Origin: Planctomycetota bacterium
Lineage (GTDB): Bacteria > Planctomycetota > Planctomycetia > Pirellulales > Lacipirellulaceae
Length of the DNA: 64,000 bases
Direction: 5' to 3'
Assembly: GCA_013152205.1 (NCBI GenBank)
Contig: JAADGV010000032.1
Span: forward strand, 1-64,000
Of the stretch, positions 22,554 to 31,991 are shown piece after piece. Below the pieces are notes generated by a model that saw nothing but the letters and a program-made list of their open reading frames with translations, was not told where the DNA came from and ran no database searches. The position numbers were made by a program, and so were the translations under genes. Position 1 is the stretch's first letter. Each line of letters starts with the position of its first letter.

Positions 22554-24236
22554 ATGCCCGACTTTTCTACTGCCGACCCTACGCAGGCGTTAGACGCCGC
22601 CGTTGCTGATCTGGGCGCGGGTGCCCAACAACTGGCAGCAATGACGCTTGATAAACGTTGCGAGTTGGTCGATGCTTGCATCCCTGCTGTGGCTCGCAAT
22701 GCGAGCGACTGGGTCGCGGAGGCTTGCCGTGCCAAGCGGATCGCTCCGGATCGTGCCATCGCAGCGGAAGAGATCCTCGCTGGGCCGGCGAATCTGTTGC
22801 GTTATCTTCGCTTGCTATCGAGTGTCTTTCGCGATGTTCAACAGAAAGGCACGCCGACGCTTCCCGGTCGGCCACACAAAAATTCACTGGGCCGCACTTG
22901 TGTTCCAATTCTTCCGATTTCAGATCTCTACGACAGCATGGTCTTCATGGGGCTGAAGGCAGAAGTCTGGTTGCAGCCGGATGCTGACGACCAATCGCTT
23001 TTCTCGGATTGCTTACAACCGGCGACCGCCACCACGGCGAAGGTTGCTGGTGTTCTTGGCGCTGGGAACGTCAGTGCGATTCCGGTGACCGATACGCTTT
23101 ACAAAATTTTTCACGAAAGCGAAGCCGTTCTGCTGAAGCTGAACCCGGTTAACGAGTATCTAGAACCGGTTTTCAATGATGCGTTGCGTCCGTTGATTGA
23201 TGCCAACCTGCTGCGCATCGTTCGAGGCGGTCGTGAGGTGGGGGACGCAATGGTCCGGCATTCCGCCATCGATACGCTGCATTTGACCGGATCGCATCTG
23301 ACCCACGACACCATTGTTTGGGGATCCGATCACGACGAACGGACAAAACGCCAACAAGAAGGGCAGCCACTGGTCACCAAGCCGGTCACTAGCGAGCTTG
23401 GCAATGTCACGCCCTGGATTGTCGTGCCGGGCAACTACACGAAGAAGCAACTCAGGGCGCAGGCCGAGCATGTTGTGGCGTCGATCGTTAACAACGGTTC
23501 ATTTAACTGCATCGCCACGAAGATGATTGTCACATCGCGGGGTTGGCCGCAGCGAGAAGATTTTCTTGATCTTATCGATATGTTTTTCAAAGCAATCCCG
23601 CCGAGATTTGCTTACTATCCGGGAGCCCTCGATCGATTTAAGCGAGCGACGGGTCGATCCAGCGTCAAAACCGATGATGGATCGTTGCCTTGGACGCTGA
23701 TTCGCGACGCGCGGCCGGACGAGTCGCCTCATTTGTTTGTTGAAGAGTCGTTCGTGTGCGTTTGTGCCGAGACGGCGCTTGACGAATCGTCGCCAACGGC
23801 ATTTCTCGACAAGGCGGTTGAGTTTGTGAACGATCGATTGTTCGGTACCTTGAGTGCGACCTTAACATTACCGAACGATTTTCGTGCGACTCATGCCGCG
23901 GCCCTCGATCGCGCGATTGGGCAGTTGCGGTACGGTTCGGTTTGTATCAATCAGTGGTCAGGAATTGTTTACGGTATGATGACTCCGCCGTGGGGCGGTT
24001 TTCCTGGAACCTCGCTGGCTGATCCGCAGAGCGGGATCGGTAGCGTGCATAATACGTTTTTCCTTGATCAGGTGGAAAAAACGGTTCTGTACGGACCGCT
24101 GTGCAACCTGATGAAACCTGCGTGGTTCGCGTCGCATCGGACGGCTCACAAGGTTGCGTGGAACCTCGTTGACTTATACCGACAGCCCAAGCTTGCCAAA
24201 TTGTTGCCAGTATCTTTCAATGCGATGCGCGGTTGA
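22554..24236 (+). CDS. Aldehyde dehydrogenase family protein
   Basis: 560 residues, longer than typical aldehyde dehydrogenases (about 480-500). Family marks: GVLGAGNVSAIPVTD (167-181, nucleotide-binding loop), KLNPVNEY, SELGNVTPWIVVPG (Glu281 as the general base) and NNGSFNCIATKMIV with the probable catalytic Cys319. Several loops differ from classical enzymes and the CoA-acylating type cannot be excluded. No signal peptide, so cytoplasmic. The C-terminal NTFFLDQVEKTVLYGPL and following helix are unusual. It heads the plus-strand cluster with the beta-helix and cytochrome genes, from which it is separated by a repeat. Confidence 0.82.
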   Translation: MPDFSTADPTQALDAAVADLGAGAQQLAAMTLDKRCELVDACIPAVARNASDWVAEACRAKRIAPDRAIAAEEILAGPANLLRYLRLLSSVFRDVQQKGTPTLPGRPHKNSLGRTCVPILPISDLYDSMVFMGLKAEVWLQPDADDQSLFSDCLQPATATTAKVAGVLGAGNVSAIPVTDTLYKIFHESEAVLLKLNPVNEYLEPVFNDALRPLIDANLLRIVRGGREVGDAMVRHSAIDTLHLTGSHLTHDTIVWGSDHDERTKRQQEGQPLVTKPVTSELGNVTPWIVVPGNYTKKQLRAQAEHVVASIVNNGSFNCIATKMIVTSRGWPQREDFLDLIDMFFKAIPPRFAYYPGALDRFKRATGRSSVKTDDGSLPWTLIRDARPDESPHLFVEESFVCVCAETALDESSPTAFLDKAVEFVNDRLFGTLSATLTLPNDFRATHAAALDRAIGQLRYGSVCINQWSGIVYGMMTPPWGGFPGTSLADPQSGIGSVHNTFFLDQVEKTVLYGPLCNLMKPAWFASHRTAHKVAWNLVDLYRQPKLAKLLPVSFNAMRG

Positions 24237-24296
24237 TTTGTCTCTTTTGGAAATACTCTAGGAACTGCTCCATAACAACTTCTTCATTTTTGAATT

Positions 24297-24454
24297 CACC
24301 ACGGAGGCACAGAGGACACGGAGTAAACAGAAAAAATTAGCTGCGGATCTAGTAGCATGCTTGGTTATTTCTCTATCCGAATATCCGTGTCCAATCCGTG
24401 GCAAAAAATGGTACTTTCTCCGTGGCCTCCGTGCCTCCGTGGTAATAACTCCAG
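24297..24454. repeat. Family A inverted repeat, second copy
   Basis: Left arm 24298-24330 (CACCACGGAGGCACAGAGGAC...) pairs with right arm 24415-24454 (...CCTCCGTGCCTCCGTGGTAA). Between them ATCCGTGTCCAATCCGTGGCA (24382-24402) is a second repeat also present at 13241. The right arm ends 16 bp before the start of the beta-helix gene. Confidence 0.8.
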
Positions 24455-24470
24455 AATACGGATCTTTGCT

Positions 24471-25841
24471 ATGTCACTACAAAAACGAACACCTAGTTGC
24501 AGTCGGCGGCCAGAGATGTGGGGCTGGAAATCGGTTACCCGTTGTGCGTTGATGATCTTGCCGATGTTGCTTGTCGGGTGTGGAAAAGGCGAGCCTGAAA
24601 CTTCTGGGGCTGCTGGCAAGCAGGAAGCGGCCGAAGGCGGACAGGCCGACGTTATCTCTTTCAAGCCTGGGCCTGATGTTCAAACGGCTTTGCAGGAAGA
24701 GCTTATTCTTGCCGAGCCTGGCAGCGTCATCCAGCTTGAAGAAGGCGTTTTTGAGTTCACCGGGGGGCTTTCTCTTGACGTGGACAACGTCACCATTCGC
24801 GGCGCTGGTATGGAGAAGACGATCCTGTCTTTTAAGAATCAGCAGGCTGGTGCCGAGGGGCTTTATGTTACCAGCGATGGCGTACTTATCGAAGACCTTG
24901 CGATCGTCGATACGAAGGGCAACGGGCTGAAATCGCATACGGCTAACGACATCGTCATTCGCCGCGTACGTGTCGAATGGACGGGTGGCCCCAAGACGAC
25001 CAACGGTGCTTACGGCATCTATCCGGTGAATTCGACCAACGTGCTTGTAGAAGATTGCGTTGCTATTGGCGCCTCTGATGCGGGCATCTACGTCGGGCAG
25101 TCGAAAAATATCATGATCCGAAATTGCACGGCTCGGTTGAATGTTGCTGGCATTGAGATCGAAAACTGCTACGGAGGCGAGGTGTACAACAACACGGCGA
25201 CAAAAAACACTGGAGGCCTGTTGGTCTTTGATTTACCTGACCTCCCGATGCAGCGGGGGCACGATATTAGCGTTCATCACAACCGAATCTTCGACAACAA
25301 CACGCCCAACTTTGCCCCCAAAGGCAACATCGTGGGCACCGTGCCGGCGGGAACCGGCGTGATGATTATGGCCAACGAAAACATTGAGGTCTTTGAGAAT
25401 GAGATTCGCGATCACGGCACGCTGAATCTCATGATCATCAGCTATCTCCTTACGGGGATTGCAATCAACGACCCGAAGTACAATCCGTATCCCGAAAAAA
25501 TCCACGTTCACCACAACACTTTCGGCAACGGCGGGGAGAAACCGGCTGGCGACAGTGGGACATTTATGGCTGGGGTTCTTGGCACTCCGCTGCCTGATAT
25601 TTTGTGGGACGGGGTCGTTGATCCTAAAAAGTACGATGGCAAGAAAATAAATCCAGGCCTGTTGATCTGCATCCACGACAACAAAAAAGAGGACGGTGGA
25701 GAACTTACTTTTGCCAATCTCCTCGGAGCCGCCGCCTCGCTGATCAACCCGAGTAAGGCAAATGTCATGCGAGACTTGGCCCCTTACGCCGGAGAGATGC
25801 CGCCGGTCGAGCCGATCGTTCTCGAAGGAGTCGACAAGTGA
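24471..25841 (+). CDS. Parallel beta-helix repeat lipoprotein (TIGR03805-like)
   Basis: 456 residues from ATG 24471 (an ATG at 24516 is also possible). The lipobox LLVGC followed by GKGEPETSG marks an exported lipoprotein. Residues about 90-330 consist of short repeats rich in Val/Ile/Asn (NVTIRGAGMEKTILSF, GVLIEDLAIVDTKGNGL, NDIVIRRVRVEWTGG, KNIMIRNCTARLNVAGIEIE), a right-handed parallel beta-helix of the pectate-lyase type. Established knowledge: this family occurs in two-gene pairs with the SO2930/HNE_0200-type protein, as here, where the next gene overlaps by 4 bp. The function of the pair is unknown; polysaccharide binding or lysis is plausible. Confidence 0.85.
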   Translation: MSLQKRTPSCSRRPEMWGWKSVTRCALMILPMLLVGCGKGEPETSGAAGKQEAAEGGQADVISFKPGPDVQTALQEELILAEPGSVIQLEEGVFEFTGGLSLDVDNVTIRGAGMEKTILSFKNQQAGAEGLYVTSDGVLIEDLAIVDTKGNGLKSHTANDIVIRRVRVEWTGGPKTTNGAYGIYPVNSTNVLVEDCVAIGASDAGIYVGQSKNIMIRNCTARLNVAGIEIENCYGGEVYNNTATKNTGGLLVFDLPDLPMQRGHDISVHHNRIFDNNTPNFAPKGNIVGTVPAGTGVMIMANENIEVFENEIRDHGTLNLMIISYLLTGIAINDPKYNPYPEKIHVHHNTFGNGGEKPAGDSGTFMAGVLGTPLPDILWDGVVDPKKYDGKKINPGLLICIHDNKKEDGGELTFANLLGAAASLINPSKANVMRDLAPYAGEMPPVEPIVLEGVDK

Positions 25842-27040
25842 GCGGGCGACCTCTAGCCATGCCATCGCCGTGGTTTATTCTGTTATGCCTTCCGGTTGTG
25901 GCATGCGGCCCGTGCTTTGCGGCGGAGATTCCTCCGGCTTACCTCGACCCCGCGAGCGAGCCGGCTGCAATGCTCGGCGACTATCATTTCTTTCTGGATG
26001 CGAAGAAACAAATTCCCAATACGCGGGTCGTTCCGTTCGATTTAAATACTCCGCACTTTGCCGACTATGCTCATCTCCGACGGTTTCTTTGGTTGCCTGA
26101 AGGTACAAGCATCGTTTATCACGAAAAGGAAGATCTTGAGTATCCCGTTGGTGCGGTTTTGATTATCACCATCAGTTACCTTCACGACCTTCGCGATCCG
26201 GCCTTGGGCGAAGACATTATCGAGACGCGACTGTTCATTCACCGGAAGCAGGGTTGGCAGGGCGCCCAGTACAATTGGAACAAGGAGACGACCGAGGCTA
26301 GGCTCTCGGTCACCGGCACAAGTGCCGAGGTCTCTTGGGTTCATTACGATGGTTCGAATCGCAGCCACACATTTCTCGCCCCCAACAGCAATCAGTGTAA
26401 ACAGTGCCATGAGTTCGGCGGGAAGCAGGTGCCCCTTGGGCCGACGAAAGCAGATCGGATCAACCGCGTGTTTCACTACGCGGATGGAGCGGAAAACCAG
26501 CTTTCTCGCTGGTCGAAAATTGGCTACCTGACAGGCTCGCCGAAAAACCCTGACGACGCGCCGAGAATGCCCGTCTGGGACGATCCTTCGACCGGGTCGG
26601 TTCACGAGCGAGCCCGAGCGTACCTGGAAATGAACTGTTCGAGCTGCCATCGGCCTGAAGGAATCGCCTACACGTCGGGACTCGATTTGACGTTCGCTCA
26701 GCAAACGCCCGTCCGCTATGGCGTCTTCAAGGCGCCGGTCGCTGCTGGTCGGGGAGTTGGCAACGGGAGATTTGCGATCGAGCCAGGAAGGCCCGATCGA
26801 TCGTTTCTTGTTCACCGATTGCGTTCGACCGATCCTGGCGTCCGTATGCCAATTGTGGGGCGAGGGCTACAGCACGAAGAAGGGGTAGCGCTCATCGAAC
26901 AGTGGATCGCCCAGATGCAGTTTACGGAGATGGCCCAAGCCCAAGTCCAGGCCGATCGGCAAGGCTTCTTTCGGATTTTCGGTTCCAACGATTCGCCGGA
27001 GAACGAATCTCGGCCCATCGCACTGGAGTCAAAAGAATGA
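25838..27040 (+). CDS. SO2930/HNE_0200-family secreted protein with two c-type heme sites
   Basis: 400 residues, GTG start overlapping the stop of the previous gene, a sign of translational coupling. Residues about 8-30 form a signal peptide. Two heme-binding CxxCH motifs: CKQCH (187-191) and CSSCH (267-271). The N-terminal domain (ADYAHLRRFLWLPEGT, EYPVGAVLIITISYL, RLFIHRKQGW) and the C-terminal HRLRSTDPGVRMPIVGRG match the HNE_0200-type family, which pairs with beta-helix proteins. It should act in the periplasm as an electron carrier or oxidoreductase; the substrate is unknown. A longer paralogue follows at 27306. Confidence 0.85.
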   Translation: MSGRPLAMPSPWFILLCLPVVACGPCFAAEIPPAYLDPASEPAAMLGDYHFFLDAKKQIPNTRVVPFDLNTPHFADYAHLRRFLWLPEGTSIVYHEKEDLEYPVGAVLIITISYLHDLRDPALGEDIIETRLFIHRKQGWQGAQYNWNKETTEARLSVTGTSAEVSWVHYDGSNRSHTFLAPNSNQCKQCHEFGGKQVPLGPTKADRINRVFHYADGAENQLSRWSKIGYLTGSPKNPDDAPRMPVWDDPSTGSVHERARAYLEMNCSSCHRPEGIAYTSGLDLTFAQQTPVRYGVFKAPVAAGRGVGNGRFAIEPGRPDRSFLVHRLRSTDPGVRMPIVGRGLQHEEGVALIEQWIAQMQFTEMAQAQVQADRQGFFRIFGSNDSPENESRPIALESKE

Positions 27041-27126
27041 GTCGGTGGCGGTGCCCCTGTGCTACTAACGATTAAAATTTACGCAACGAGCAAGAATTTT
27101 GGACGATTGGACTTACAAATTTGACT

Positions 27127-27312
27127 CTCGCAAAGGCGCAAAGAGCCGTGAAAATCATCCTCACAAGCTCTCGCCCGAGGCACCGAAAGGAAATTGATCT
27201 CGCAGAGGCGCGGAGACAGCAGAGAAAACGGGGATCCGTAGCTCTGCTGTCTCCGCGCCTCTGCGAGATAACCCTCTTTCTTGTTTCCTTTGCGACTTAG
27301 CGCCTTTGCGAG
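27127..27312. repeat. Family D nested inverted repeat (CTCGCAAAGGCGCAAAGAGC type)
   Basis: Inner arms 27197-27224 and 27242-27269 are perfect 28-bp reverse complements with a 17-nt loop. Outer arms 27127-27150 and 27289-27312 are also complementary (CTCGCAAAGGCGC with GCGCCTTTGCGAG). The outer right arm reaches into the TTG start region of the following cytochrome gene. Confidence 0.9.
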
Positions 27313-28895
27313 AAATTCCTACCTACTTGGCTACGGCTTTGCCACGCTGGGTTGCGCTGCTTTCGCTAGCGCTGTCGGGCTGTGGATCGGACGCACCGAC
27401 CGAGCAGCAATCGTCTGATTCGTCAGTAGGTGGCAATGCGGTACATGTCGACGTTGAGGCCCGCCGTCCGGCGAGCATGCTTTCGGAATACAATCTTTTT
27501 GCTGATTTGAAAAATCAGGTGCCTAACGAGGGCGTTATCCCGTATGTGCTGCGGTCGTCTCATTTTGTCGACTACGCGGTTTCGCACCACTATCTCTATC
27601 TGCCCGCTGGCGCGCGGGCGACCTACCACGAGAATGACGTGTTTGCGTTCCCCGTTGGTACGGTGCTGATTCAGTCGCTCGGATTTCCCAACGACCTACG
27701 CTACCCGCTGCAAGGAGAACACATTGTTGAAACCCGTCTACTGATTCACCAGAGAAAGGGTTGGGTTGCTGTGCCTTACCTTTGGAACGATGAGGGGACC
27801 GATGCGCGGCGGGCGGTCATTGGCGGGAAGACGACCGTCCATTGGATTCACCATGACGGGGAAGAACGCTCGCACCAGTTTATTACGCCAGACATGAACC
27901 AGTGTAAGCGTTGCCACAAAAACCAGGATATCGTTCGACCGATCGGAGTCCGCGCGCGGAATCTCAATTGCCAACTTGCAGATGGCAATCAACTGGCACG
28001 CTGGGCCGAAACGGGTTTGCTTGACGGGGTTCCTGACGCAAGCAGCGAAATCCCTCAAGCGGTTGTCTGGAGCGACCCGACGACTGGCTCGGTCGAAGAG
28101 CGGGCGAGGGCTTGGCTTGATGTGAATTGCTCGCATTGTCACAATCCCCACGGAACGGCCAGTGTCTCGGGACTTGATCTTTCGTTGCACCAGAAGATGC
28201 CGGTGCGGTTTGGAGTTTACAAACCGCCGGTCGCGGCTGGGCGAGGTTCGAGCGGTTTCCAGTTTAGCATCACCCCCGGAAGCCCTCAGACTTCTTTTCT
28301 ATTGCACCGCATTCGCTCGACCGACCCTGGTGCGATGATGCCGACGGTTGGTCGTAGTCTTGTCGACGAAGAAGGAACGGCGCTGATCGAGCAATGGATC
28401 AACGAGATGCATGGCGACGAGCAGCTTGCCGAACGTGCTTTGAATCCTGTCAAAGCCTACCGTGCCGCGCTCGAAGGGGGCGACGCCTCGCGCGGCAAGA
28501 AGCTTTTTTACTCGACCGCAAAATGTAGTTCTTGCCATCAGGCAAACCAGAACGATCCTGGCAATGTCGGCCCCTCGTTGGCCGACGTGGCATCTCGCAC
28601 CAAGCGCGAGTATCTTTTGGAATCGATCGTTGCACCCAGTGCAAAGATTGTTGAGAAATACGCTGCCACGATTGTTGAACTCGACGATGGCAAAGTTCAT
28701 TCTGGCATTGTCGCGTCGGAGGATGCCAATGAACTGGTTCTCCGAATGGCCGATGCAACTCAGATCAAACTGTCGAAAGAAAGCATTGACGATCGGCTTC
28801 TCTCGCCCGTTTCGCTCATGCCTTCGATGGCAAACATTCTTTCAACCCAGGACGTTGCTGATCTGATTGAGTTTCTCTCGACACTCAAGGATTGA
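27306..28895 (+). CDS. SO2930/HNE_0200-family lipoprotein with three CxxCH heme sites
   Basis: 529 residues as drawn; the TTG at 27306 lies inside the preceding repeat, and TTG codons at 27327 or 27336 are alternatives that keep the lipobox (LALSGC, Cys26). Hemes: CKRCH (200-204), CSHCH (275-279), and CSSCH (407-411) in an added C-terminal domain. Residues about 45-370 parallel the 25838 protein along the whole length (NDLRYPLQGEHIVETRL, DPTTGSVEERARAWLDVNCSHCH). The extra domain (GKKLFYSTAKCSSCHQAN, SLADVASRTKREYLLESI, LVLRMADATQIKLSKESI) is the planctomycete cytochrome c/putative heme-binding type often found with membrane-bound dehydrogenases. Confidence 0.85.
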   Translation: MREIPTYLATALPRWVALLSLALSGCGSDAPTEQQSSDSSVGGNAVHVDVEARRPASMLSEYNLFADLKNQVPNEGVIPYVLRSSHFVDYAVSHHYLYLPAGARATYHENDVFAFPVGTVLIQSLGFPNDLRYPLQGEHIVETRLLIHQRKGWVAVPYLWNDEGTDARRAVIGGKTTVHWIHHDGEERSHQFITPDMNQCKRCHKNQDIVRPIGVRARNLNCQLADGNQLARWAETGLLDGVPDASSEIPQAVVWSDPTTGSVEERARAWLDVNCSHCHNPHGTASVSGLDLSLHQKMPVRFGVYKPPVAAGRGSSGFQFSITPGSPQTSFLLHRIRSTDPGAMMPTVGRSLVDEEGTALIEQWINEMHGDEQLAERALNPVKAYRAALEGGDASRGKKLFYSTAKCSSCHQANQNDPGNVGPSLADVASRTKREYLLESIVAPSAKIVEKYAATIVELDDGKVHSGIVASEDANELVLRMADATQIKLSKESIDDRLLSPVSLMPSMANILSTQDVADLIEFLSTLKD

Positions 28896-28910
28896 TGGTC
28901 GAAACAAAAA

Positions 28911-29010
28911 AAGAGAACCGCTAATCAGCGCTAATGCACGCTAATAGGTGAACGAAATGCAAAAAAACAGACATGCGATTAGCGATTATCCGCGTTGATT
29001 AGCGGTTTCT
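28911..29010. repeat. Family B inverted repeat (ACCGCTAATCAGCGCTAAT type)
   Basis: Left arm 28911-28946 and right arm 28975-29010 are imperfect complements centred on GAACCGCTAATCA / TGATTAGCGGTTTC. Related half-copies: 16606-16645, 31110-31146, 56311-56355. It follows the stop of the cytochrome gene at 28895. The rest of the gap to 29263 has no supportable gene. Confidence 0.8.
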
Positions 29011-29263
29011 TCTTTCAGAAAATTGTGTCAAGAAAGCAAGCTTTACGGGTTTGTCTTACAGGTGCGCTGGACACGGAGGGGTCGAATGCTGTTACAATAC
29101 CCGGCGTTGCATGGCTGGAAGCGCCGAAAGGTGGGTGGACCTGTCGCCCTACTAATCTGTTTGCAAGAGATGGTCTTTGGGAGGAGATGTCGTGGCCGAC
29201 ACCGCTAACGAATCTACTTTAGGCTTTAATGACTCTTGGGAACGTGAATTGGTGAGTTGCTCT

Positions 29264-31087
29264 ATGAATCGAACCCTCTGGCGTGTTTGCGCTGCGGTCT
29301 TTTTGCTGATCTTTCTCTCTCCTGGCTGCTCGAAGCCGCTGGAGCCAACGAGCGTCCTTGATACCGAGGTGGCACTGCCACTGTTGGGAGAGAAGGTTTC
29401 AAGATTTTCGTTCGTCGATTTGCGGTACTTGTCGCGGACACTGGACGAGTTTGGCGAGAACAAGGCGTATGTGATCGTGTTTACGAATCTCGATTGCCCG
29501 ATTGTGAAACGTTTTCTGCCTCGGCTGAAAGCACTCGACGAACAGTATCGTGAGCAAGGCGTGCAGTTTCTATCGCTCAACGTGGGGCCTGAGGATTCGG
29601 TGGTCGATGCGGCTGCGCAGGCGGTGAAAGCGGATATTGCGTTTCCTTTCTGCAAAGACTTTGACGGCGAGGCGGCGAAGGCGTTGGGAGTGACTCGAAC
29701 GCCGGAGGTCGTGGTGCTCGACGCGGATCAACGGTTGGTTTATCGAGGGCGGATCGATGGCAGCATTCGCTTTGCCGGGGTAAGCCCCAAGAAGGTTCGC
29801 GAAGATCTGAAGGAGGCGATCGAAGATGTATTGGCCGGCGAGGAAGTTCGCGTAGAAGAAACGCCCGTGGATGGTTGTCTGATTACGTTTCCCAAGGACC
29901 AAGGGCCTTCGGATCGAGAGGTGACGTTTAGCGAGCACATTGCCCCGCTGTTGCAAGAGCATTGCCAGAATTGTCATCGACCGGATACCGAAGCCCCGTT
30001 TTCGCTGCTTACGTACGACGACGCGGCGACTCATGCCGAAATGGTCGGCGAAGTAGTTTTGCAACAGCGGATGCCGCCTTGGTTTGCGTGTGAGCAGGAT
30101 GGCGAAATTGTGAATCGCCGCACCATGGACGCTGACGAACGACAGTTGATCGCCGATTGGATTGCGGCGGGCACACCCGAGGGCGACCGAGCGAAGTTGC
30201 CTGAGCCGAAGGAGTTTTCTGATCTGGACTGGCAGATTGGCAAGCCCGACCTGCTCATCAAGATGGCTACCGAGCAGAAGATTCCTGCCGATGGGTACAT
30301 TCCGTATCGCTACGTTACTTTGCCCTATGTGTTTCTCCGCGATACTTGGGTACAGCAGATCGAAATCCATCCTGGCAATCGAAACGTCGTGCATCATTGC
30401 AATATGGCGTATGTCACGATGGAAAATGGAAAGCCAAAGGAACATTTCATCACGGGGTTCGTGCCGGGGGGGACGGCGATGTTCTTGGACGAGGGGACTG
30501 CATTTAAGATTCCAGCGAAGTCGATTTTGGTTTTGCAACTTCACTATGTTTCGCTGGGCGAGGAGGCAAGCGACCAAACCTCGGTGGGTTTTGTTTTTCC
30601 GAAGAGTGCTGTTAACAAGCAGATCAAGCACATGCAGGTGAAAAATCTGGATTTTGAAATTCCGCCGGGGGCGCCCCACCATGCGGTCGTTGGCGAGCGC
30701 ACGCTCGAACACGATTCGACTGGCATCGCCATGTTCTCTCACATGCACCTCCGGGGTAAAGACATGACATTTTTGGCACACTACCCCGATGGCACCCAGG
30801 AGACGCTGTTGACAATTCCCAACTACAGCTTCGACTGGCAGATGTCATACCGTTGGGAAGTCGGCAAGAAGAAGTTTCCGCAGGGGACACGGATCGAGTG
30901 CATCGCCCATTTCGATAATACCGAGTTTAATCCGTATAATCCTGCTCCCGACGAGGCAGTTCGGTATGGCCCGCAGACGTATCACGAGATGATGTTTGGT
31001 TTTTTCTTTTTCCTGGAAGACGACGAGAACTTGAATCTGGCCATCGATCCGAATACGGGGCATGTCTTAATAACTCAAAGTGAATAA
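29264..31087 (+). CDS. Redoxin / c-type heme / copper type II monooxygenase-like lipoprotein
   Basis: 607 residues from ATG 29264 (the upstream open frame lacks a signal). Lipobox LSPGC (Cys22). Domain 1 (about 40-195) is a thioredoxin-like redoxin with NLDCPIVKRF, keeping only one cysteine (Cys78) of the usual pair. Domain 2 carries a CQNCH heme site (234-238). Domain 3 (about 330-600) resembles the copper type II ascorbate-dependent monooxygenases: VVHHCNMAYV (His377/378), LQLHYVS (His427), FSHMHLRGKD (His493/495) and a Met at 527 that could be the sixth ligand. It probably sits on the outer face of a membrane; substrate unknown. No neighbour identifies the electron donor. Confidence 0.8.
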   Translation: MNRTLWRVCAAVFLLIFLSPGCSKPLEPTSVLDTEVALPLLGEKVSRFSFVDLRYLSRTLDEFGENKAYVIVFTNLDCPIVKRFLPRLKALDEQYREQGVQFLSLNVGPEDSVVDAAAQAVKADIAFPFCKDFDGEAAKALGVTRTPEVVVLDADQRLVYRGRIDGSIRFAGVSPKKVREDLKEAIEDVLAGEEVRVEETPVDGCLITFPKDQGPSDREVTFSEHIAPLLQEHCQNCHRPDTEAPFSLLTYDDAATHAEMVGEVVLQQRMPPWFACEQDGEIVNRRTMDADERQLIADWIAAGTPEGDRAKLPEPKEFSDLDWQIGKPDLLIKMATEQKIPADGYIPYRYVTLPYVFLRDTWVQQIEIHPGNRNVVHHCNMAYVTMENGKPKEHFITGFVPGGTAMFLDEGTAFKIPAKSILVLQLHYVSLGEEASDQTSVGFVFPKSAVNKQIKHMQVKNLDFEIPPGAPHHAVVGERTLEHDSTGIAMFSHMHLRGKDMTFLAHYPDGTQETLLTIPNYSFDWQMSYRWEVGKKKFPQGTRIECIAHFDNTEFNPYNPAPDEAVRYGPQTYHEMMFGFFFFLEDDENLNLAIDPNTGHVLITQSE

Positions 31088-31424: not shown

Positions 31425-31991
31425 ATGGAACGGTCTCACACTTTTGCCGAGAAGGTAGCGGTCTGCGTCGAGCGTCTGACGGAGAGTGGGGTTGCTGCGC
31501 TCGGTGGGCTGTTCGATCTTACGTCGCAACGGCTCGTCCGTTATGCCACGACGATTACGTGCAACCAGCACGATGCCGAGGATGCGGTGCAGGCGAGCTT
31601 GGTTCAGGTCGCTAAGAGTTTGCGAAAGTTCTGTCAGGTCGATCAACCGTGGCCCTATCTTTTGCGAGTGGTTCGGAACGAAGCTTTGCTTATTGCTCGG
31701 CGCAAGAAGCGGTGGACCCTGTCGGGTAATCTGGCCGATCTTTTTACGCGGCGGCTGGTTGACGAAGTCGAGATGGAAGAGACCTACCGAGCCGTTTGGA
31801 GTGCTCTGCGTTCGTTGCCCACCGAACAGGCCGAAGTTGTGGTGTTGAAAATTTGGGAAGAGATGACGTTTGCCCAAATTGCGGAGATCCTAGAGATTTC
31901 GCCGGGCACTGTTGCCAGTCGCTACCGTTACGCGATGCAAAAGCTGGCGCAGAAACTTGATCCTGCGGAGGGCAAGGTTCCGAATGTCTGA
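31425..31991 (+). CDS. ECF-type RNA polymerase sigma factor
   Basis: 188 residues. Region 2 (about 30-90; LVRYATTITCNQHDAEDAVQ, SLVQVAKSLRKF, PWPYLLRVVRNEALLIAR) and region 4 (about 125-180; ALRSLPTEQAEVVVLKIWEE, TFAQIAEILEISPGTVASRY) are a standard extracytoplasmic-function sigma factor. It leads a plus-strand operon of GspF-like and pseudopilin genes and overlaps the next gene by 8 bp. It may be devoted to that operon, which is inference from layout. Start ATG at 31425, with no obvious Shine-Dalgarno. Confidence 0.9.
   Translation: MERSHTFAEKVAVCVERLTESGVAALGGLFDLTSQRLVRYATTITCNQHDAEDAVQASLVQVAKSLRKFCQVDQPWPYLLRVVRNEALLIARRKKRWTLSGNLADLFTRRLVDEVEMEETYRAVWSALRSLPTEQAEVVVLKIWEEMTFAQIAEILEISPGTVASRYRYAMQKLAQKLDPAEGKVPNV

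Follow-up and report, generated by a model that had tools for sequence, protein, structure and literature searches.

The protein families TIGR03805, a parallel beta-helix, and TIGR03806, a diheme c-type cytochrome, occur as a pair that is widespread (at least 558 relatives were confirmed here) and named as families, yet without a function. Excerpts of a Shewanella network paper (PMC4837345) list SO_2930, the namesake of the diheme family, as an outer-membrane/extracellular cytochrome, and the extracts of two other papers (PMC10986466 and PMC5829830) mention SO_2931 alone. No functional study of TIGR03805/TIGR03806 was found among open-licence PMC papers. Here we analyse a cluster of five genes that contains this pair, located in a 64 kb stretch of a planctomycete genome (hereafter the window). 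The genes code for an aldehyde dehydrogenase (ALDH), the beta-helix lipoprotein, the diheme cytochrome, a triheme paralogue of the latter and a protein that joins redoxin, heme and copper domains (Table 1). A first-pass annotation of the same DNA had described five plus-strand genes of these kinds and taken the cluster for a redox system; open reading frames, family scores and heme motifs agree with the former statement, and the redox nature of the cluster is supported as well. The cluster is a real, partly conserved redox set built around a known pair that lacks an assigned function.

The beta-helix and diheme proteins form the core of the set

Both proteins exceed the curated cut-offs of their families: the beta-helix protein matches TIGR03805 with 422.2 bits (cut-off 141.5; model positions 1-314 covered) and the diheme protein matches TIGR03806 with 354.2 bits (cut-off 313.3) and carries two CXXCH motifs. 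The distribution of the pair was analysed in a phylum sample of 294 genomes (TIGR03805 above cut-off in 13, TIGR03806 in 12), in an order sample of 196 genomes (TIGR03806 above cut-off in 33) and in GTDB loci, which are the best 80 of the at least 558 confirmed relatives. Besides the window's own genome, the neighbourhood was retrieved for all 11 phylum carriers and, as 20 regions, for 19 of the 32 order carriers. Beta-helix and diheme are a single polypeptide in 13 of the 30 planctomycete genomes inspected (6/11 from the phylum and 7/19 from the order sample, own genome uncounted), and the diheme is adjacent or fused to the beta-helix in 70 of the 80 GTDB loci, 3 of them with a fusion. Nine of the 10 GTDB genomes without adjacency hold an above-cut-off TIGR03806 protein elsewhere; the tenth, G495 (2.1 Mb), holds none. 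The recurrent unit that the first-pass annotation had recognized as a beta-helix/HNE_0200-type pair is thus supported, and the two proteins form the core of the set.

Among the 74 diheme relatives aligned, all keep both CXXCH motifs; outside these motifs M337 and K298 are likewise kept in 74/74 and H346 in 61/74. A search of the PDB with the diheme profile gave nothing useful (best E 0.28). A related arrangement was found in planctomycete proteins in which a pyrroloquinoline quinone (PQQ) glucose/sorbosone dehydrogenase-like domain precedes a TIGR03806-like C-terminus (5/5 scanned: L016, L018, L019, L020 and L025; both domains below the curated cut-offs). The TIGR03806-type diheme may thus be a recurrent module that accepts electrons from an oxidising domain ahead of it, and by analogy the beta-helix would fill the substrate slot.

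Two further observations concern the loci that carry the pair. A family that contains DUF2147, as a scan of the L188 member showed, is encoded immediately after the diheme in SAR86, with relatives in sphingomonad loci (L188:12769-13260 and L204:12181-12621). Locus L187, on a contig labelled as a Klebsiella pneumoniae metagenome-assembled genome (MAG), has the pair; its diheme groups in the tree with those of environmental MAGs from Gammaproteobacteria, and the name therefore probably reflects a binning error.

Table 1. Genes of the cluster, with window coordinates and the evidence for each call
Feature	Coordinates	Strand	Evidence
Divergent ALDH	22554-24236	+	PF00171 score; Glu281/Cys319; 71% identical neighbour in G300
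Parallel beta-helix lipoprotein (TIGR03805)	24357-25841 (likely start 24516)	+	TIGR03805 score; lipobox LVGC; fold of relative L145
Diheme c-type cytochrome (TIGR03806), beta-helix partner	25838-27040	+	TIGR03806 score; CXXCH at residues 187, 267
Triheme paralogue, TIGR03806 + TIGR02603 heme domain, lipobox LSGC	27306-28895	+	Curated models; CXXCH at residues 200, 275, 407
Redoxin - CXXCH heme - PHM/DBH-like copper domain protein	29177-31087 (likely start 29264)	+	Redoxin score; PHM fold; six ligand positions

Fold and conserved residues of the beta-helix protein

The identification of the second gene product as a beta-helix lipoprotein is upheld with a changed start. The lipobox LVGC is found at residue 72 of the longest frame, and the likely start is 24516, just ahead of the lipobox, instead of 24357. 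A confident fold was predicted for the beta-helix-diheme fusion protein of L145 (predicted local distance difference test score, pLDDT, 91.2; predicted template modelling score, pTM, 0.90). The beta-helix part took all matches of the fold search, so the result covers that part only: the best match is mannuronan C-5 epimerase AlgE4 (Z 34.5), and the NosD structure 7o0y is found at Z 28.6. Profile searches of the PDB with the beta-helix protein returned only weak matches to phage appendages and a pectinesterase. In the alignment of 82 beta-helix rows (best piece per locus, as in all alignments used for counting; L131, in a wrong reading frame, excluded), K192, E207, W208, N216, Y219, Y222, D241, Y245, Q248, E267, E269 and N270 are kept in at least 80 rows, and none of the positions conserved at 93% or more is a His, Cys or Met.

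These data bear on three explanations of what the pair does. The beta-helix might handle copper as NosD does and mature the adjoining copper enzyme, as weak NosD profile matches (PF05048, 34.8 bits) and the presence of 7o0y among the fold matches would suggest. However, the TIGR04247 score is 32.4 bits against a cut-off of 300, the beta-helix lacks a conserved His, Cys or Met, AlgE4 fits better and the pair is mostly found without the copper protein, which together make this role most improbable. It is very unlikely, too, that the cluster serves as a terminal electron sink or in extracellular electron transfer, the beta-helix being a scaffold only. Such a role would be in keeping with the excerpted listing of SO_2930 (PMC4837345) and with the lipobox-like motifs of the cluster proteins (LVGC in the beta-helix, LSGC in the triheme protein and a doubtful VVAC in the diheme), but polar groove residues are conserved more strongly than a scaffold needs and the recurring metabolic neighbours (ALDH, PQQ dehydrogenase) point toward substrate oxidation.

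The third explanation is that the diheme is a modifying enzyme similar to MauG/MbnH, which oxidises beta-helix residues into a protein-derived cofactor, the mature beta-helix being the oxidase. In G030 (L130:5310-7622) a TIGR03805 beta-helix is indeed fused to a MauG/MbnH-type diheme protein (PF03150, 183.7 bits; TIGR03791 and TIGR04039 matches below cut-off), and by appearance, without a family scan, there is a MauG-type fusion in G344 (L228) and a MauG-type neighbour in G256 (L131). The MauG-type beta-helix proteins keep Y219, Y222, D241, Y245, E267 and E269 in 4/4, and the three tyrosines are also kept in 82/82 rows of the main alignment. In the diheme, M337 is the sole invariant Met/His outside CXXCH, so one heme may be open. 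On the other hand, Trp208 is missing in 4/4 MauG-type proteins, and the TIGR03806 proteins of the window have no CCP_MauG, TIGR03791 or TIGR04039 match at E ≤ 1; we regard maturation of this kind as quite unlikely. A Trp-based cofactor is made less likely by the loss of Trp208 in the MauG-type branch.

The triheme paralogue

A motif scan found two CXXCH in the diheme, three in the triheme and one in the copper protein. The triheme protein matches TIGR03806 with 356.8 bits and TIGR02603 with 108.9 bits (cut-off 68.15), in line with the proposal that the pair had been expanded by a three-heme paralogue with an extra cytochrome domain, and it comes after the diheme in the same order in L139, G300 and G446. 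In the Hydrogenedentota locus L140 the second TIGR03806 copy lacks the extra domain and the first copy has three CXXCH. The copies from the window, L139 and L140 split into two supported clades, which indicates that the duplication predates the lineage of the window. Three-heme TIGR03806 proteins were also seen in G369:C65 (L263), G382 (L264) and G385 (L265), where the fetched region contains no beta-helix.

Conservation of the five-gene set

Conservation of the neighbourhood in related genomes, which the first-pass annotation had named as a check, was found narrowly: among the genomes inspected, only G300, of the same genus, has all five genes. ALDH, beta-helix, diheme, triheme and copper protein have the same order and strand there, with 71, 74, 71, 70 and 75% identity, respectively. 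Between the first four genes of G300 there are either gaps of 14 bases or overlaps of 4, and two opposite-strand genes, one for an alpha/beta hydrolase, lie between the triheme and copper genes. In the 14.7 kb fetched, on a contig that ends 272 bases upstream of the ALDH, nothing beyond the five genes matches the window. The copper gene is followed by GDPD and RtcB genes in G300, whereas the window has a gene for an extracytoplasmic function (ECF) sigma factor (31425-31991, same strand), which was not found in the G300 region. The pair occurs in 3 of the 14 genomes of the genus, own included, so the five-gene island is patchy.

In the window, the beta-helix and diheme genes are the sole overlapping pair (4 bases) and the remaining gaps measure 120-370 bases; a single transcript is therefore not evident. 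A scan of the window for promoters (2 versus 5.9 expected) and terminators (18 versus 14.5) gave no excess over chance.

Association of the aldehyde dehydrogenase with the pair

The ALDH exceeds the PF00171 cut-off (37.6 versus 23 bits) by a match confined to residues 215-328, and Glu281 and Cys319, the catalytic Glu and Cys, are invariant in 29/29 aligned relatives. Neither a signal peptide nor a lipobox was seen in the protein, which is probably cytoplasmic. Its association with the pair, already suggested in the first-pass annotation, is borne out in 12/12 sampled carriers of two families. In the family of the window the ALDH adjoins the pair in 6/6 (own, G300, G302, G307, G327 and G457), upstream in two and downstream in four, and in a second family also in 6/6. 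The ALDH is found beside the pair in L145, L168 and L194 as well, among the best 80 GTDB loci. Across the phylum sample, 8 of 12 pair carriers have the ALDH as compared with 22 of 294 genomes (hypergeometric p = 1e-7, kinship uncorrected; 6 of the 8 genomes with both belong to one family). In L129 (G125:C121) the copper protein has a relative at 49% and the ALDH one at 31%; the two were observed 1.3 kb apart on opposite strands, and no beta-helix was noted there.

The redoxin-heme-copper protein

The copper type II enzymes peptidylglycine alpha-hydroxylating monooxygenase (PHM) and dopamine beta-hydroxylase (DBH) process animal hormones. The fifth protein matches Redoxin (50.7 bits) / AhpC-TSA in Pfam; there was no Cu2_monooxygen or Cu2_monoox_C match at E ≤ 1, and none in NCBIfam. 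Among the model searches listed as checks in the first-pass annotation, those with TIGR03805 and TIGR03806 thus gave scores above the cut-offs and that with Cu2_monooxygen found nothing. The copper type II monooxygenase-like domain described there nevertheless emerges from profile and fold comparison. The profile of the domain finds human DBH (4zel, E = 0.0035), and Foldseek ranks 1-26 for its predicted model are all PHM (E 6e-11). VIA-align gives Z 16.4 to 1opm over residues 329-590 and Z 15.7 to 4zel, the next fold being at 9.3; the model is modest (10 sequences; pLDDT 56.2 overall, about 60-84 across most of residues 330-570).

H377, H378, H427, H493, H495 and M576 are invariant in 41/41 aligned sequences (9 gammaproteobacterial and 32 planctomycete, the latter with the window copy and two paralogues from the same genome; L160 not included). 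All five histidines proposed earlier as a copper site are therefore retained, and Met576 is added as a sixth conserved ligand position. This invariance and the match in fold serve as a proxy for the clustering of the histidines in a predicted structure that the first-pass annotation called for. By the ligand pattern of the PHM/DBH type, HH and H would form the CuH site and HxH and M the CuM site, an assignment partly echoed by the PDB titles of H107A, H108A, H172A and M314I mutants. The CXXCH is present in 40/41 rows; the row of L178 is a piece without the heme motif, a stop codon splitting that gene. Judged by fold and ligand positions, the fifth protein should end in a true PHM/DBH-type copper domain. 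From the start at 29264, a non-canonical lipobox-like SPGC was spotted by eye.

The copper link is the weakest part of the cluster association. Copies of the copper family are present in 4/20 order regions: G300 (orthologue), G340 (35%), G361 (40%, opposite strand) and G327 (a piece at the region edge). Within the flanks of the best 80 GTDB loci a copy is found in 10 (L155, L156, L160, L164, L165, L170, L173, L174, L178 and L184), of which nine, from Pseudomonadales, share an orthologue (68-87% to the L164 copy) that belongs, with the pair, to a single conserved cluster. There, genes for cytochrome c, a TRAP transporter and binding proteins accompany the copper gene, and cupin, beta-helix and diheme are oriented divergently from this group. 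A PQQ dehydrogenase is also present in 8 of the 10 loci. The full set seen at L164:663-13952 and equivalents comprises TRAP DctM, NMT1-like binding proteins, a 330-aa protein, the heme-copper protein, PQQ dehydrogenase, cytochrome c, cupin, the pair and peptidase M15. The ten loci are mostly one clade, and the nine Pseudomonadales cases are close to one event.

It is a possibility to be taken seriously, and one that we still doubt, that the unit consists of ALDH, beta-helix and diheme (with or without the triheme), the copper protein being a bystander from a large family that settled nearby in one genus. Gammaproteobacterial genomes contain 10-25 matches to the family each, and the planctomycete genomes searched contain 5-19 when redoxin-only pieces are counted; with so many copies chance adjacency to the pair is not negligible. 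Orthologues of the window copy occur in G216, G179, G044, G181, G207 and G238 in regions without the pair or the ALDH family, the copper gene of G300 is parted from the triheme by two opposite-strand genes, and the neighbouring copy of L155 is a different paralogue. Against a bystander, the G300 neighbour is an orthologue (75%) although the flank past it is not common to both, and the nine Pseudomonadales genomes keep the same copy (mutually 68-87%) in one cluster with the pair. The link to a copper enzyme made in the first-pass annotation accordingly holds for the orthologue in G300 and is weaker than stated there, given the 4/20 order regions, 0/11 phylum regions and the multi-copy family.

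Proposed function

The explanation that we prefer, tentatively, is a secreted, membrane-anchored system in which the beta-helix would oxidise a substrate, the diheme accept the electrons and the ALDH finish the oxidation, with the copper protein as an accessory. Beta-helix and diheme would act as one enzyme, in which a groove of the beta-helix, lined with conserved Tyr, Asp, Glu and Lys, would be where it binds and acts on a substrate that is saccharide-like and perhaps a uronate. The diheme, placed like the dihemes behind PQQ sugar dehydrogenases of other planctomycetes, would take the electrons and may pass them via the triheme paralogue to the respiratory chain. After import, the resulting aldehyde would be a substrate of the cytoplasmic ALDH, which would oxidise it. 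As for the redoxin-heme-copper protein, it could be a PHM/DBH-type hydroxylase with an accessory role, in which the protein's own heme would substitute for ascorbate as electron source.

Several results weigh against this system. The beta-helix has no visible cofactor, so oxidation there would need unfamiliar chemistry, and PDB profile searches found no solved structure related by sequence to either core protein. Across lineages, the pair has no conserved neighbours that would point to a substrate, such as a lyase, a sulfatase or a TonB receptor. The ALDH is absent from the fetched regions in 14/14 carriers from other families of the order and not adjacent in 5/5 remaining phylum-sample carriers outside the two families (G065 has it on another contig); conversely, 14/294 phylum genomes have the ALDH without an above-cut-off pair. 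The copper protein is absent from 11/11 phylum-sample pair regions.

A broader proposal, which we consider unlikely, is that the beta-helix-diheme pair represents a new class of polysaccharide/uronate oxidoreductase, acting directly or via a heme-installed tyrosine-derived cofactor; the same beta-helix would be paired with two unrelated dihemes (TIGR03806 and MauG type) and, in some lineages, with a heme-fed PHM-type hydroxylase. With the fusions, its two types of heme partner and its link to the ALDH, the orphan pair becomes an enzyme that can be tested. The copper part, should it belong to the cluster, would be a PHM-like enzyme from bacteria that brings its own heme donor.

Comparison with known systems

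The closest described system is the TIGR03805/TIGR03806 pair itself (beta_helix_1; SO2930 family diheme c-type cytochrome, alias HNE_0200). The window has both members above cut-offs, adjacent and overlapping, and adds to the plain pair a TIGR02603-bearing triheme paralogue, an ALDH and the copper protein; the two genes, separate here, are one polypeptide in related planctomycetes. The PQQ-TIGR03806-like fusions of planctomycetes have the C-terminal diheme-type domain in common with the diheme of the window, whereas their N-terminal domain is a PQQ dehydrogenase-like propeller and not a beta-helix. MauG/MbnH is also a diheme partner of a target protein, and G030 provides a true MauG-type domain in fusion with a TIGR03805 beta-helix, but the dihemes of the window show no MauG match. 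AlgE4/AlgE6 and other carbohydrate-active beta-helices have the right-handed beta-helix in common with relative L145 (Z 34 over about 295 residues); this likeness is one of fold alone, with no sequence match, and the helix is here coupled or fused to a diheme cytochrome. Finally, the fifth protein shares with the copper type II enzymes PHM/DBH the predicted fold and six ligand-like positions, and differs from them in being bacterial, in carrying redoxin and CXXCH heme domains in front and in an identity of about 15%, beneath Pfam detection.

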